Positions 51,043 to 57,502 of a stretch of 64,000 nt of DNA are shown piece after piece. The position numbers and the translations under genes are program-made. The stretch is from an uncultured Paracoccaceae bacterium. Its GTDB lineage: Bacteria > Pseudomonadota > Alphaproteobacteria > Rhodobacterales > Rhodobacteraceae. How positions within the stretch are numbered: position 1 is the stretch's first letter; every line of letters starts with the position of its first letter. The stretch lies in the NCBI GenBank assembly GCA_947498645.1, contig CANMKS010000001.1, positions 2,332,032 to 2,396,031 of the forward strand. The letters run 5' to 3'. Below the pieces are notes generated by a model, which searched no databases, had not been told where the DNA came from, and was given only the letters and a program-made list of their open reading frames with translations.

Positions 51043-52302
51043 ATGCGTCGTGTGGTTGTTACAGGCTTGGGGTTGGTTACACCCCTTGCGGATGGTGTCG
51101 AAAATTCCTGGGAACGTATTCTTGCAGGCCAGTCAGGTGCGGGAAAGATCACAGGCTTTGATCCCAGCAGATTGACCACCCAATACGCGTGCGAAGTCCC
51201 CTTGGGCGATGGGTCAGACGGCACATTCCATGCCGATACCTACATGGACCCCAAAGAACAGCGTAAGGTTGATACCTTCATTTTGTTTGGCATGGCTGCC
51301 GCCCAGCAGGCGGTTCAGGATGCCGGATGGATGCCAGAGGATATCGAGGACCTTGAACGCACTGGCGTGCTGATCGGGTCTGGCATTGGCGGTCTCAACT
51401 CCATCTCCAACACTGCCCAGATGATGGCCGAGAAGGGCCCGCGCCGTGTGTCGCCGTTTTTTGTGCCCGGTGCGCTGATCAATCTGATTTCAGGGCAGGT
51501 GTCGATCCGCTATGGCTTCCGCGGCCCGAACCATTCGGTTGTGACCGCCTGTTCGACCGGCGCGCATGCGATCGGGGATGCTTCCCGGCTGATCCAGCAT
51601 GGTGATGCGGATGTGATGATTGCAGGCGGTGCAGAAGCCGCGATTTGCGAGCTTGGCATGGCTGGCTTTAACGCCTGTAAGGCGTTGAGCACAAAGCACA
51701 ATGATGACCCAACTGTGGCCAGCCGCCCATGGGATGCAGACCGTGACGGCTTTGTCATGGGTGAGGGTGCGGGTATTGTCGTGCTGGAAGAATATGAGCA
51801 CGCCAAGGCGCGTGGTGCAAAGATCTATGCCGAGATTTTGGGCTATGGCCTAAGTGGCGATGCCCATCACATTACCGCCCCGCCACCGGATCACGAGGGC
51901 GCAGAGCGCGCCATGCGTGCGGCCTGCCGGAACGCGGGGATTGAGCCGGCGCAAATTGATTATGTGAACGCACATGGCACATCGACCATGGCCGATACCA
52001 TCGAATTGGGCGCGGTTGAGCGTCTGGTGGGTGATGCTGCATCATCGCTGGTGATGTCGTCGACAAAATCGGCCACCGGTCACCTTTTGGGTGCTGCCGG
52101 CGCGATTGAGGCGATCTTTTCGATCCTGGCGATCCGCGATCAGGTGGCCCCGCCCACCATCAACCTGGATAATCCAGCTGTTGAGACGGTTGTTGACCTT
52201 TGCGCGAACGAAAAGCGCCCGTGTGAGATCAAGATCGCCCTGTCGAACTCATTCGGCTTTGGTGGCACGAACGCCAGCCTTCTCCTTGGGAAAGCCGACT
52301 GA
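51043..52302 (+). CDS. fabF: 3-oxoacyl-ACP synthase II
   Basis: The protein has 419 residues. MRRVVVTGLGLVTPL opens the frame; the active-site Cys is in VVTACSTGAHAIGDA (about 168), with His residues in NAHGTSTMADT and KSATGHLLGAAG. It elongates acyl-ACP. It shares one base with mltG, so the two are coupled. Confidence 0.98.
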   Translation: MRRVVVTGLGLVTPLADGVENSWERILAGQSGAGKITGFDPSRLTTQYACEVPLGDGSDGTFHADTYMDPKEQRKVDTFILFGMAAAQQAVQDAGWMPEDIEDLERTGVLIGSGIGGLNSISNTAQMMAEKGPRRVSPFFVPGALINLISGQVSIRYGFRGPNHSVVTACSTGAHAIGDASRLIQHGDADVMIAGGAEAAICELGMAGFNACKALSTKHNDDPTVASRPWDADRDGFVMGEGAGIVVLEEYEHAKARGAKIYAEILGYGLSGDAHHITAPPPDHEGAERAMRAACRNAGIEPAQIDYVNAHGTSTMADTIELGAVERLVGDAASSLVMSSTKSATGHLLGAAGAIEAIFSILAIRDQVAPPTINLDNPAVETVVDLCANEKRPCEIKIALSNSFGFGGTNASLLLGKAD

Positions 52303-53459
52303 TGTGGCGCCATATTGCGGCCAACGCACTGACGTTTCTGACCGTGGCCTTGTTTCTGCTGGTTGGTGTCATTGCGTGGGGTACGCGCGAATACCGCGCG
52401 CAAGGCCCGTTGGAGGCCGCAATATGCCTGGAGGTGCCCCGGGGTGGCAGCATCAAGGGGTTGAGCGCTGATCTGACCGAAAAGGGTGCGATTTCATCCG
52501 CCTTTGTTTTCGAGATTGGCGCGGATTACACCGATAAATCCGGCGATGTGAAATTTGGCCGGTTTCGGGTGCCTGAACAGGCCTCGATGGAAGATATCGT
52601 TGATATTGTGACCCGTGGCGGCCGCAATACCTGCGGTGCAGAGGTGATCTATCGCGTAGGTATCAACCGCACGCTTGTTGATGTCCGTGAGTTGGATCCG
52701 GCCTCAAATGAGTTTGTTGACCTCGTCAGCTTTGAGGCTGGCGGGTTGGAAGTCCCGCCGACCTATGCCGAGGTACGGGCCGATGGCAGTGCGACCTATC
52801 GTGTTGTGATTGCCGAAGGGGCGACCAGTTGGCAGATCGCCAATGCCTTGTCCCAGATTGATATCCTGCGCTCTGACGTCACGGATGTGCCGCCAGAAGG
52901 GGTGTTGGCCCCGCGTGACTATGACCTGCGCGAGGGTGATACGGTGTCGTCTGTGTTGGAACGCATGCGCGCGGCGCAGACCGAGATATTGACCGAAGCC
53001 TGGGAAAACCGGGCAGACGGGTTGCCTTTGGCGTCGGCCGAAGAGGCGCTTGTTCTGGCCAGTATCATTGAAAAGGAAACCAGCGTTCCGGATGAGCATC
53101 CTCAGGTTGCCAGCGTCTTTGTGAACCGCCTGAACCGGGGCATGCGTTTGCAGACCGACCCGACGGTGATCTATGGCATCACCAAGGGCGAAGGTGTGCT
53201 GGGGCGTGGTTTGCGTCAGAGCGAGCTTCGCGCGGCAACGCCTTGGAATACTTATGTTATTGAAGGTTTGCCGCCGACGCCGATTGCCAACCCCGGCAAG
53301 GCCGCTATTGAAGCCGCACTGAACCCTGACACCACGGAATATATCTTCTTTGTGGCTGACGGTACGGGTGGTCATGCCTTTGCGACCAATCTGGACGATC
53401 ATAATCGCAATGTCGCCCGCTGGCGCGAGATCGAGGCGGAGCGTGCCAACGACGGCTGA
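52302..53459 (+). CDS. mltG: Endolytic transglycosylase MltG
   Basis: The protein has 385 residues with one N-terminal helix (about 5-25). A LysM-like region is followed by the YceG domain with catalytic Glu in ASIIEKETSV and the closing TDPTVIYGIT and NTYVIEGLPPTPIANPG. It cuts nascent peptidoglycan strands at the inner membrane and helps set glycan length. The fabF-mltG order is conserved in alphaproteobacteria. Confidence 0.96.
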   Translation: MWRHIAANALTFLTVALFLLVGVIAWGTREYRAQGPLEAAICLEVPRGGSIKGLSADLTEKGAISSAFVFEIGADYTDKSGDVKFGRFRVPEQASMEDIVDIVTRGGRNTCGAEVIYRVGINRTLVDVRELDPASNEFVDLVSFEAGGLEVPPTYAEVRADGSATYRVVIAEGATSWQIANALSQIDILRSDVTDVPPEGVLAPRDYDLREGDTVSSVLERMRAAQTEILTEAWENRADGLPLASAEEALVLASIIEKETSVPDEHPQVASVFVNRLNRGMRLQTDPTVIYGITKGEGVLGRGLRQSELRAATPWNTYVIEGLPPTPIANPGKAAIEAALNPDTTEYIFFVADGTGGHAFATNLDDHNRNVARWREIEAERANDG

Positions 53460-53629: not shown

Positions 53630-53980
53630 ATGAACGCATTGAATGACGTGGGGCGTGATCCCCCGGCTTTGGCGGCTGACCGGCTGTCGGAGATTGAAAC
53701 GCTGTTTGAGATGATCCGCAAAGCGCTCCAGCAGGCGGTGGCCGAGATCGGTGAACCAACCGCCGAAATGCCCAAGGCCATCAAGAAGCGGCTTGATGAT
53801 TTGATTGATGCCCATCTGAAGATACTGTCGGCAGAGGACGCGTTTCATGCAAAAATTGGAAAAACCGAAGACGGCGAAGCCGTTGACTATGACGCGATCC
53901 GGGCTGAAATCGGGCGCCAACTTGATCGCATCCGAGCAAGCCTCAACGCAGAAGGCATTTTTATCCGACCTGACCGATAA
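53630..53980 (+). CDS. GTA small terminase-like protein (g1 homologue)
   Basis: The protein has 116 residues from ATG 53630. It is mainly helical (LSEIETLFEMIRKALQQAVAEI, AIKKRLDDLIDAHLKILSAEDAF) and its position directly in front of a large-terminase start matches ORFg1 of the RcGTA-like cluster, the small terminase. It would recruit DNA to the packaging motor if the rest of the particle existed. The next gene starts inside it in another frame. With the downstream structural genes gone, it may be a relic. Confidence 0.7.
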   Translation: MNALNDVGRDPPALAADRLSEIETLFEMIRKALQQAVAEIGEPTAEMPKAIKKRLDDLIDAHLKILSAEDAFHAKIGKTEDGEAVDYDAIRAEIGRQLDRIRASLNAEGIFIRPDR

Positions 53981-56339
53981 GCAACTGCAAGCGCTGCCCT
54001 ATCTGTTTGAGTTCTGGGCGATGCCGCATCAGGTGCCGCCCGCGGGCGACTGGCGGTCATGGGTCATTCTGGGAGGGCGCGGTGCGGGCAAGACCCGCGC
54101 CGGTGCTGAATGGGTGCGCAGTATGGTTGAAGGACCAACGCCCCATGCGCCGGGCAGCGCCCGCAGGGTGGCATTGGTGGGTGAAACCATGGATCAGACC
54201 CGCGAGGTCATGGTATTTGGTGACAGTGGCATTCTATCCGTTTGCCCCGCTGACCGCCGCCCTGAATGGGTGGCGGGGCGCAAGTTGCTGGTCTGGCCCA
54301 ACGGGGGGCAGGCGCAGCTTTTCTCTGCCTATGACCCCGAAAGCCTGCGTGGCCCGCAGTTTGATGCGGCATGGGCGGATGAAATGGGTTGCCCAGCTGT
54401 CGACAAAGGAGCGAACCAACCGCATCGCAAGCTAAGCAGCGCTGCCGAACTGACACTGCCCGATGGATCCACGGGCGCGCGTGATGATCTGATGCAGATG
54501 CAATATTTGCGCGCCATAACAACGCATTTTGCTGACGAAGCGCACAACCCGACAGCTGCCGTTGATGGGGGGCGCATGGTCAATCTGGATCGTATGCATG
54601 TCTGGGGTTGGGACGCGCGACCCTATCCGTTCTGGCCCGGCAATCAGGCGCTATGGAGCGATGGAGAGCGCTATGCGCGCGGGCCATGGCTCAATGGGCG
54701 GGCGAGCAACAGGTCGCTGGCATCGGTGGTGGCCGAAATCTGTGATCGGTCCGGCGTGACGCGCTGTGATACATCCGCGCTTTTTGGGGTCGTGCGGGGG
54801 TATATGGTCAGCGACATTGGCACGGGGCGGGCGGCCTTGCAGCCGTTGATGCTGGCCTATGGCTTTGATGCGATCGAACGCGATGGCGTGCTGGTGTTTC
54901 GCAATCGCAGCGGTGCGGCGGATCATCACCTCACAGATGCCATGCTGGCCCTTGATCCGGAAACGGATCAGGCCTTGTCGTTGACCCGTGCTGCCGGGGC
55001 AGAGGTGGCGGGTCGTGTCCAGATGGCATTCCTGCATGCGGATGGCGATTATGACGCTATCGCCGCAGAAACTGTTCTGCCCGATGATGTGACGCTTGGT
55101 ATCACCCGCAACGAGGCGCCGCTGGTCCTGACCCGTAACGAAGGGCAAGCCACTGTCGCACGCTGGTTGCAAGAGGCGCGCATCGGTCGTGACACGGCCC
55201 GGTTTGCATTGCCGCCCTCGCAACTGGATGTTGGTGCCGGGGATGTTGTCGCACTAGATACCGAACGCCACGTGGGCACCTACCGGATTGACCGTATTGA
55301 AGAGGCGGGCGTGCGGTTGGTTGATGCCACGCGGGTTGAACCCTCTGCCTATGCGGCACCGGCGGTACTGGACGACAACGTCGCCTTGCAGCCCTATGTG
55401 GGGCCAATCCCTGCAGAGATGCTGTTTCTTGATCTGCCGCTACTGACCGGTGATGAACAGCCCCACGCGCCTTATGTGGCCGCCGCTGGGCGGCCCTGGC
55501 CGGGCAGTATCGCACTTTATGGCGCACCACAGGACAGTGACTATGCCTTGCAGGAGATACTCAATGAGGCCGCGGTGGTCGGCGTCACGCAAAGCGCCTT
55601 GGCACGAGGCCCGGTTGGTATCTGGGACAGGCAGGCCGCCGTTGAGGTCACGCTAGTGGATGGCAGCCTCAGCTCTGCAACTCCCGAGGCGTTGCTGGCG
55701 GGGGCGAACCTGATGGCTATAGGCGATGGCAGCGCGGACGGATGGGAGGTATTCCAGTTCCGACACGCAGAGCCGCTTTTTACTCGCGGTTTTGGCCTGT
55801 CAGGCCTCTTGCGTGGACAAGCTGGAAGCCGGGGATTGATGCCGGAGATCTGGCCTGTCGGATCGCGGGTGGTCTTGCTGAATGGCGTCCCAGAGCAGAT
55901 CACCATCCCGACGGCATCACGCGGTATCACGCGGCACTTCCGCTACGGTCCCGCCAAACAGCCGATAACCGACCCAAGCTATCGCTACATCAGCCATGCA
56001 TTTGCCGGCAACGGCCTGCGGCCTTATCCGGTTGCGCATCTGCGCGCGCAGACAACCGGCGCTGGGCTTGATCTGTCATGGATCAGGTGCAGCCGGATCG
56101 ACGGCGATATCTGGGCGGATGGAGAGATTCCACTGGGCGAGGATATCGAGGCCTATACCGTGCGGGTCATCCAGGGCACTGCAGTGCGGCGCGAAGTGGT
56201 CGTGAACAGCCAAGGCTGGTCATACACCAACGCACAGATTGCAGCGGATGTAGGCGGTGCTAGCTATGATATCGCAGTGGCGCAATTGTCCGACCGATAT
56301 GGGGCTGGGCCATTCACCACTGTGACCGTGACCCCATGA
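53847..56339 (+). CDS. Chimeric GTA gene: large terminase N-terminus (g2) fused to host-specificity protein C-terminus (g15)
   Basis: One open frame of 830 codons joins two GTA proteins. Residues about 1-180 are the ATPase half of the large terminase: ALPYLFEFWAMPHQVPP, Walker A GGRGAGKT (76-83), EWVAGRKLLVWPNG, and Walker B region FDAAWADEM. From about residue 181 (nucleotide 54387) the sequence becomes the rear half of the phage-tail/host-specificity protein g15: GCPAVDKGANQP, DDLMQMQYLRA, VWGWDARPYPFWPGN and YARGPWLNGR. It then continues to the normal g15 end. The terminase nuclease domain and everything from g3 to the first half of g15 are missing. AGAGGAC precedes ATG 53847; ATG 53889 is also possible. 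The product is unlikely to package DNA. Confidence 0.88.
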   Translation: MQKLEKPKTAKPLTMTRSGLKSGANLIASEQASTQKAFLSDLTDKQLQALPYLFEFWAMPHQVPPAGDWRSWVILGGRGAGKTRAGAEWVRSMVEGPTPHAPGSARRVALVGETMDQTREVMVFGDSGILSVCPADRRPEWVAGRKLLVWPNGGQAQLFSAYDPESLRGPQFDAAWADEMGCPAVDKGANQPHRKLSSAAELTLPDGSTGARDDLMQMQYLRAITTHFADEAHNPTAAVDGGRMVNLDRMHVWGWDARPYPFWPGNQALWSDGERYARGPWLNGRASNRSLASVVAEICDRSGVTRCDTSALFGVVRGYMVSDIGTGRAALQPLMLAYGFDAIERDGVLVFRNRSGAADHHLTDAMLALDPETDQALSLTRAAGAEVAGRVQMAFLHADGDYDAIAAETVLPDDVTLGITRNEAPLVLTRNEGQATVARWLQEARIGRDTARFALPPSQLDVGAGDVVALDTERHVGTYRIDRIEEAGVRLVDATRVEPSAYAAPAVLDDNVALQPYVGPIPAEMLFLDLPLLTGDEQPHAPYVAAAGRPWPGSIALYGAPQDSDYALQEILNEAAVVGVTQSALARGPVGIWDRQAAVEVTLVDGSLSSATPEALLAGANLMAIGDGSADGWEVFQFRHAEPLFTRGFGLSGLLRGQAGSRGLMPEIWPVGSRVVLLNGVPEQITIPTASRGITRHFRYGPAKQPITDPSYRYISHAFAGNGLRPYPVAHLRAQTTGAGLDLSWIRCSRIDGDIWADGEIPLGEDIEAYTVRVIQGTAVRREVVVNSQGWSYTNAQIAADVGGASYDIAVAQLSDRYGAGPFTTVTVTP

Positions 56340-56617
56340 GGGCCGTACAACTGGCCGACATAGACATCGCAGCGCGGGCATTGCTGGCTGTGGATGCCAA
56401 TGCGCGGGCAGGGGTGATGAATGAACTGCTGCGCCGCGCCGACATTGCCGACAGGTATCGCAAGAAATTGCGGCGCCCACACGCGCAATTTGGCACGGGC
56501 ACCTTGATGTCGGCGGCGTCGCGATTTGACATTGCACCGCGGCCCAGCCGGATCAGCGGCGAAGTGTTGCGCGCGTATGCCTTTGTTATCAATACCTTAT
56601 GCGATCAATCTGCGTGA
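56336..56617 (+). CDS. Small protein following the GTA g15 gene (DUF7742-like)
   Basis: The protein has 93 residues and starts with an ATGA overlap on the chimeric gene. It is helical and Arg-rich (VDANARAGVMNELLRRADIADRYRKKLRRPH) and ends CDQSA. Small proteins like this follow GTA clusters in Rhodobacterales. The function is unknown. Its survival marks the right boundary of the deletion. Confidence 0.65.
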   Translation: MRAVQLADIDIAARALLAVDANARAGVMNELLRRADIADRYRKKLRRPHAQFGTGTLMSAASRFDIAPRPSRISGEVLRAYAFVINTLCDQSA

Positions 56618-56698: not shown

Positions 56699-57502
56699 AT
56701 GGCTCATGTGCAAACAAATCTGACCGAAGTTGACCCGGTTTGGCATCGCATCTGCGAAGAGGCAGAGGCGGCCATTGCCAGCGAACCCCTGATGGGTGGT
56801 TTGGTGCATGCAGGCGTGCTGCACCACAAATCCTTTGAGCGGGCCTTGGCCTATCGCATCTCGATGAAACTTTCGTCGCCAGAGATGTCGGAACAGATTT
56901 TGCGTGAAATTGCAGACCATGCCTATCTGGAAGCGCCCGAACTGGCATCGGCGGCGCGCGCCGATATCGTGGCGATCTATGACCGTGACCCGGCCTGCCA
57001 CCGGTTCCTGCAACCTTTGTTGTTCTTCAAAGGGTTTCAGGCAGTGCAGGCCTATCGCCTTGGACATTGGCTGTTCCAGAATGACCGCCGCGATCTGGCC
57101 TATTTCATCCAGATGCGGGCGAGTGAGGTTTTCGGCGTCGATATCCACCCCGCCGCCCGGATCGGGAAGGGGATCATGATTGACCACGCACATTCGATTG
57201 TTGTGGGTGAAACGGCCGTTGTGGGCGACAATGTCTCAATGCTGCACTCGGTCACTTTGGGCGGGACCGGCAAGGAAGATGATGACCGCCACCCCAAGAT
57301 TGGCGATGGGGTGCTGATTGGTGCGGGCGCTAAGGTGCTTGGAAATATCACGGTTGGTCAATGCAGCCGGATCGCAGCAGGTTCCGTTGTGCTGGAAGAA
57401 GTGCCACCGATGAAAACCGTGGCAGGGGTTCCGGCGAAAATCGTGGGAGAGGCCGGGTGTTCCCAGCCATCCATAACGATGGATCAAATTTTGAACACGT
57501 AA
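56699..57502 (+). CDS. cysE: Serine O-acetyltransferase
   Basis: The protein has 267 residues. The helical N-terminal domain (about 1-140) is followed by a left-handed beta-helix of hexapeptide repeats with DHAHSIVVGETAVVGDNVSMLHSVTLGG and the catalytic His/Asp. It makes O-acetylserine for cysteine synthesis and is feedback-inhibited by cysteine. Its position at the right end of the GTA region fits the arrangement in other Rhodobacterales. Confidence 0.97.
   Translation: MAHVQTNLTEVDPVWHRICEEAEAAIASEPLMGGLVHAGVLHHKSFERALAYRISMKLSSPEMSEQILREIADHAYLEAPELASAARADIVAIYDRDPACHRFLQPLLFFKGFQAVQAYRLGHWLFQNDRRDLAYFIQMRASEVFGVDIHPAARIGKGIMIDHAHSIVVGETAVVGDNVSMLHSVTLGGTGKEDDDRHPKIGDGVLIGAGAKVLGNITVGQCSRIAAGSVVLEEVPPMKTVAGVPAKIVGEAGCSQPSITMDQILNT

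Follow-up and report, generated by a model that had tools for sequence, protein, structure and literature searches.

The window studied here, a stretch of 64,000 nucleotides from an uncultured Paracoccaceae bacterium (contig CANMKS010000001.1), carries the scar of an 11-kb deletion in a gene transfer agent (GTA) head-tail cluster of the RcGTA type, in which the beginning of the large terminase gene g2 is joined in frame to the end of g15, the megatron gene. The same codon-exact join is found in 77 further GTDB genomes, mostly Rhodobacterales with some Hyphomicrobiales, and, judged from sequence comparison, it has most likely arisen many times independently, each time from the lineage's own g2 and g15. 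Taken as a whole, these observations may best be explained, in a reading held with somewhat less than even confidence, by a recurrent, young and position-exact deletion through enzyme-like site-exact recombination or cut-and-join. That GTA clusters become pseudogenes and that 'cheater' lineages exist is already known (PMC10883770, in the parts consulted), and the persistence of GTAs despite producer-cell death, together with the origin of non-producers, is treated as an open question in the parts consulted of PMC10883770 and PMC6209664. The fusion itself is mentioned neither in those parts, nor in the parts consulted of PMC9836097, nor in the open-licence literature searched.

The fusion is a single open frame (53847-56339, 830 codons) made up of the ATPase half of g2 and the C-terminal half of g15. 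In its protein, Pfam detects Terminase_6N at residues 74-180, the end of GTA_TIM at residues 170-264 (profile positions 204-299 of 299), Phage-tail_3 at residues 324-486 and Rcc01698_C at residues 576-676. The Terminase_6N match covers only profile positions 2-105 of 215, so that the large terminase of the window is incomplete and is not that of a functional cluster; NCBIfam GTA_megatron aligns residues 171-827 with profile positions 640-1298 of 1299, and its score of 706 bits against a cut-off of 800 falls short of a full g15. No second match to the fusion protein was found in the bacterium's own genome (4 contigs, 99.99% complete).

The parent state can be seen in the nearest relative in the comparison, genome G037, which has an intact cluster at the same locus, with the same flanking neighbours, in the normal order of full g2, portal, prohead protease, capsid, connector, DUF2460, tail genes, hub and full g15. 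Its g2 has both the ATPase and the nuclease domain (Terminase_6N 2-214 plus Terminase_6C), and 11,140 bp separate the g2 site from the g15 site. With flanking proteins 96-98% identical between the two, and the same terminal genes, the window locus is a GTA-cluster remnant. Compared with G037, the window follows g2 up to Asp178 (54378-54380) and g15 from Met180 (54384-54386), and Glu179 in between (54381-54383) is identical in both parents. The profile matches and the comparison with G037 confirm the first-pass annotation, which had proposed an in-frame g2-g15 chimera left by a GTA cluster deletion and had placed the join at about 54378-54392, an interval that holds all three codons; g1 in front and a small gene behind, which it had also named, are both present. 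It had recommended a search of the rest of the genome for capsid and portal, and the hidden Markov models (HMMs) of portal (PF04860) and capsid (PF05065), both with matches in G037, have none in the 4-contig genome of the window. The features of the locus are:

53847..54380, + strand: portion of the fusion that comes from g2, the large terminase's N-terminal ATPase half (Pfam Terminase_6N), 92.8% identical to G037 g2, with GGRGAGKT and FDAAWAD, which we take to be Walker A and the Walker B region.
54381..54383, + strand: join, a Glu codon present in both parents (g2 ...WADE, g15 ...WFTE) by comparison with G037 g2 and g15.
54384..56339, + strand: g15-derived part with the end of the GTA TIM barrel, Phage-tail_3 and Rcc01698_C (Pfam, NCBIfam GTA_megatron), 93.2% identical to G037 g15.
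53630..53980, + strand: g1, open frame of the GTA small terminase homologue, 91% identical to G037 g1 over 116 residues with the same frame end; it overlaps the start of the fusion frame, has no Pfam or NCBIfam match, and takes its name from the first-pass annotation and its position.
56336..56617, + strand: small gene behind g15 (DUF7742; PF24891, E=2.4e-25), its start overlapping the fusion stop.
52302..53459, + strand: upstream flank gene, presumably MltG-like, the same neighbour as in intact G037 (97% identical homologue at that locus).
56699..57502, + strand: downstream flank gene, presumably CysE-like, the same neighbour as in intact G037 (96% identical homologue at that locus).

The 77 further genomes were found with a degenerate DNA pattern of the join, which requires exact spacing there; searches with protein probes do not. 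All 77 pattern-found loci fit the exact join, and no near-miss join was seen among the spanning matches of the protein-probe searches. In a family survey of 394 genomes, about one per genus, at least 16 genomes other than that of the window gave a single match across the join, and in all 16 other family genomes with a whole-probe match, among the matches listed, the join lies at the same codon. Within genera, the fusion occurs at that codon in 10 of 54 Ruegeria, 4 of 62 Sulfitobacter (G110 among them) and 3 of 13 Roseicyclus genomes; in Yoonia it occurs in 4 of 56, namely the window, G023 with the whole fusion at 71% identity, G031 where it has decayed and G045 where it is frameshifted just after the join. 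Of the 10 Ruegeria, eight belong to the 77 pattern-found loci, the join of G479 was read in its sequence, and G487 agrees with the exact pattern. A class-wide census with a Devosia-type probe gave a match in 108 of 385 genomes and nearly the whole probe in two (G110 and the window genome), which indicates that the fusion is rare outside the family. The join pattern had no match in IMG/VR, and no fused copies were seen on plasmids or phages among the matches listed (15 of 16 plasmid and 15 of 226 phage records). In both collections a single record covers at least 80% of the query in one place; the listed plasmid one (Shinella, query 151-829) begins 29 residues ahead of the join. An odd match in G446 was ruled out as a fusion, being intact g2.

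Such recurrence leaves little room for an assembly artefact, the probability of which we put close to nil: the same join is read in independent assemblies, including the one-contig G110 and the two-contig G948, and the capsid family is absent in 17 of the 23 fused genomes tested. Capsid matches in the other six (G487, G125, G299, G199, G147, G392) lie on other contigs or at least about 30 kb away. The assembly collapse that the first-pass annotation had named as a refutation is thus very unlikely, and its idea of an accident of one strain does not stand in view of the 77 other genomes and of the repeated origins indicated by trees.

Several other arrangements were seen on the way. In Ruegeria sediminis (L101/L161) the fusion frame is open for 1310 codons from stop to stop, reaching more than 450 codons upstream of the usual terminase start. 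The Yoonia relative G034 (L033/L189) has a different deletion, with g1 sequence joined to the g15 TIM barrel in an open frame of 834 codons, and seven further Ruegeria (L194, L195, L199-L203) have different internal g2-g15 deletions; together with the 10 exact fusions these make at least 17 of 54 Ruegeria, so GTA loss is common in this genus. The cluster of G808:C1 is compact or partly deleted, g2 and g15 being separated by only about 4 kb and each having an open frame, and G053 and G468 have several extra g15-like genes of 36-43% identity to the probe, presumably in prophages.

Evidence for independent origins comes from gene trees of the g15 half. A FastTree tree of 74 fused and 34 intact rows, with duplicates and short rows excluded, requires at least 14 changes of state, 10 of them forced by starred branches, and sets apart a clade of 11 rows from Devosia, Mesorhizobium, Aminobacter, Chelativorans, Phyllobacterium and unplaced Alphaproteobacteria. 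A midpoint-rooted tree of Yoonia, Ruegeria, Sulfitobacter and Roseicyclus splits the 20 fused loci among 16 clades that have no intact member, with intact relatives in between, and at least 12 changes of state are forced by starred branches. The window locus pairs with intact G037 (support 100/99), and in Roseicyclus intact species stand between the three fused ones. The residue after the join Glu is the lineage's own: Met in the window, G037 and G034, and elsewhere Leu, Phe, Tyr, Ile, Thr and more. In G045 even the Glu is replaced, by Ala, and in g15 of the four clade members read this position is Ala or Ser. Scattered fusions in the trees, the lack of shared DNA near the join and these lineage-own residues together argue that each event most likely drew on local g2 and g15. 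A single domesticated fusion gene, long inherited, would suit the same architecture in two orders, but fusions interleave with intact relatives in four well-sampled genera, the fusion in the window is 93% identical to an intact locus, and the trees contradict such a gene unless intact clusters were regained many times, so we regard it as highly improbable. Repeated regain of intact clusters as the alternative to repeated loss is unlikely.

The lack of shared DNA bears on another account, in which a single ancient deletion was passed from species to species through homologous recombination and its flanks were later replaced by local sequence. It accounts for identical joins and for mixed populations, and the deletion allele fits a GTA capsid whereas the whole cluster does not, most GTA clusters exceeding the length that their own particles can carry (PMC6209664, in the parts consulted). 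Fused-fused identity around the join was tested in the four genera, with all Ruegeria and Sulfitobacter fused rows in except L178 (an earlier comparison omitted L169 and L219, both of which have exact joins), and identity dips were checked in 60-bp windows for 11 fused-intact pairs. Within 60 bp on each side, fused-fused identity is not raised in Ruegeria, Roseicyclus or Sulfitobacter; by label shuffles, Ruegeria and Sulfitobacter show a deficit on both sides and Roseicyclus nothing marked. In 3 of 44 windows, an excess of fused-fused identity was matched by no more than 30 of the 500 label shuffles: 60-120 bp left of the join in Ruegeria (30/500) and Roseicyclus (11/500) and in the last 30 bp left of it in Yoonia (16/500). 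Three of 44 is about the chance expectation; a consistent trace of donor DNA is not seen. Moreover, the residue directly after Glu is the recipient's, and two orders are spanned. Although the Ruegeria, Roseicyclus and Yoonia windows could be read in its favour, spread of an old deletion is improbable on this evidence.

As for the age of the events, the frame is open in 46 of 53 evaluable fusions and broken in seven, 24 of the 77 being excluded because they are cut at the end of the fetched stretch. We estimate that a neutral open frame of 830 codons would soon be lost, which leaves a recent origin of the events or selection on the protein as explanations. The residual frames of the seven other Ruegeria deletions are mostly open as well, which favours youth, and the deleted lineages would then be young and short-lived, as expected of GTA non-producers. 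Coexistence of alleles is suggested by G024, an assembly of about 140 contigs. Its contig with the N-terminal part of g2 (C140) stops exactly at the join (...GGATGA), contig C65 overlaps C140 by 55 nt, continues into intact g2 and carries capsid, and the contig with the C-terminal part of g15 (C68) starts at the join (GAATTGGGCTGC). The 55-nt overlap looks like the assembly k-mer, and the simplest reading of these contig sequences is a graph branch from intact and deleted alleles in one sample. G087 and G213 have contigs that start at this Glu codon of the join, and a G032 contig ends beside it. Some natural populations appear to contain the intact as well as the deleted allele.

Selection on the product offers a different view of the exactness: many deletions arise, and only the exact in-frame fusion is useful or harmless and hence seen. 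Nearly all the fusions are in frame, which agrees with it, as do the proportion of open frames, dN/dS (the ratio of non-synonymous to synonymous substitution rates) of 0.04-0.39 between paired fused rows where computable, a value by which youth and constraint cannot be separated, and the P-loop GGRGxGKT, invariant but for one nearly invariant position among 43 fused rows that were chosen for long open frames. However, the predicted structure of the fusion (43-row alignment; mean predicted local distance difference test score, pLDDT, 76.8; predicted template modelling score, pTM, 0.45) gives no sign of a hybrid fold. The tail domains and some of the ATPase are modelled with confidence; pLDDT is below 50 at 180-216, just after the join, and at 251-287, and the model's best PDB matches are the baseplate-tail of siphophage R4C and the GTA particle. 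The functional terminase-tail hybrid that had been envisaged finds no support in these two poorly predicted segments, and the modelled fused protein is most likely a by-product without function. In addition, fused lineages mostly fail to persist as clades, non-exact deletions are also mostly open so that open frames reflect youth too, and joins one or two codons away would hardly be forbidden by selection. We therefore consider selection on the product unlikely.

In 43 of 44 intact loci, the stretch of identity at the join measures 0-8 bp, with a median of 3 and no more than 3 bp in 25 of the 43; for the g2/g15 pair as a whole, the longest repeats reach 11-15 bp and the median number of 8-mers in common is 227. 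Microhomology as the sole cause was rejected on this comparison, and the short-homology recombination that had been offered as a possible mechanism does not hold. A motif is common to the two sites in register, reading P-Q-x4-W-x2-E at the protein level and CCNCAR-12-TGG-6-GAR at the DNA level; in 46 intact loci its window has z 5.1, and of all pairs of 24-bp windows within 200 bp just one scores better, for a motif looked for after the fact. In every case read, the crossover is at the right-hand end of this motif. One might propose slipped pairing at the imperfect in-register repeat (CCNCAR-12-TGG-6-GARYTNG), a mutational hot spot with no dedicated enzyme. The in-register similarity is conserved and near the top of its neighbourhood, 19-26 of 40 bases are identical in 13 intact loci, and some Ruegeria parents have 7-8 bp at the join, in comparisons of which one covered 29 of 34 intact loci. 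In each of those 13 loci, however, 40-861 diagonals have a better ungapped score than the join diagonal; the short runs in 25 of 43 loci point the same way, no crossover was seen at its left-hand elements, CCNCAR and TGG, and the join occurs in G045 although its g15 Glu is probably Ala. Slipped pairing is accordingly given a low probability.

Other deletions between the same genes provide a further comparison. The seven other Ruegeria g2-g15 deletions all have different ends, none at either exact site; neither site is a breakpoint on its own, so it is the pair of sites that matters. When eight other deletions, including L198 from outside Ruegeria, are set against the nearest intact locus, overlaps of 6, 9 and 13 bp are found in three, one abuts and four have no assigned overlap.

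The deletion, which in the window joined g2 after its Walker B Asp to g15 at the residue following the Glu of WFTE with loss of the 11-kb middle, is probably a frequent, position-exact event. No known mechanism readily explains many separate fusions at the same codon. An enzyme-like, site-exact mechanism is the one to which we tentatively incline, at rather less than an even chance. In it, an activity recognising both sites would join g2 and g15 at a fixed point, which would suit the common motif and the crossover at its right-hand end. A bolder version, which seems to us rather doubtful, is a built-in GTA off-switch, in which a putative activity would cut or recombine the two g2/g15 sites with their common in-register motif and excise the 11-12.5 kb core exactly, leaving an in-frame scar, so that non-producers would arise repeatedly.

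Several observations weigh against enzyme-like, site-exact deletion. The large serine recombinase family PF07508 is absent from the window's own genome, the one family and genome searched for this. A circle (reverse) junction is absent from IMG/VR and the 436 fetched loci, the scope of that scan, apart from two IMG/VR matches rejected as chance matches in unrelated phages; metagenomes and whole genomes lie outside it. No inserted element was seen at either site among the IMG/VR matches listed: the 120 at the g2 site continue as terminase (93 by regular expression, the other 27 by eye), and all 80 at the g15 site have K-P plus I, V, F or L in front of them. The g15 site shows no constraint at synonymous positions, and the g2 site is only mildly conserved (L178 omitted from this comparison). 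An identical GA core at the crossover is seen only in G024, from contig ends, and G045 shares perhaps one base at the join, which misfits a strict 2-bp core. Yoonia's two fused rows are slightly more alike near the join than to intact rows, and the other Ruegeria deletion L199 likewise has no overlap at its join. Finally, the branch in G024 is known from contig ends and not from reads, and G032, G087 and G213 have no capsid match, so that a mixture there is a hint only.

A further integration site in a GTA gene was observed in G415 (L186-L187, G415:C1:436000-470000), where an element of about 15-17 kb, with tyrosine-integrase-like and ParA-like frames recognised by eye, interrupts g15 in the TIM barrel. 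Its position is about residue 561-567, some 100 codons away from the fusion site.

Whatever its cause, a base-exact repeated loss is a countable marker: with a single PCR (polymerase chain reaction) or read-mapping query, the rate of GTA loss and its frequency can be measured in any population. An enzymatic basis of the exactness would point to an as yet undescribed activity on GTA genes, a selective one to a function of a debris-like protein.

Compared with known systems, the fused locus resembles an RcGTA-type cluster (g1-g15) in its locus, its terminal genes g1, the start of g2 and the end of g15, DUF7742, and the same flanks as G037, and departs from it in lacking the middle 11 kb with portal and capsid and in holding g2 and g15 in one frame. 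Like the pseudogenised clusters of 'cheater' lineages, it belongs to scattered lineages that have lost GTA production, whereas no recurrent exact fusion is mentioned for those in the parts consulted of PMC10883770.

Programmed or site-specific excision, such as that of prophage-like elements which leave a rejoined gene, is similar in its position-exact join, in-frame scar and the apparent presence of deleted and intact forms in one sample; it differs in that no recombinase, circle or conserved DNA site was found here, and in that the gene function is destroyed and not restored. Ordinary microhomology deletions in other Ruegeria share with the fusion an internal deletion between g2 and g15, but their ends are scattered, while the exact join falls at one place with 0-8 bp of identity.

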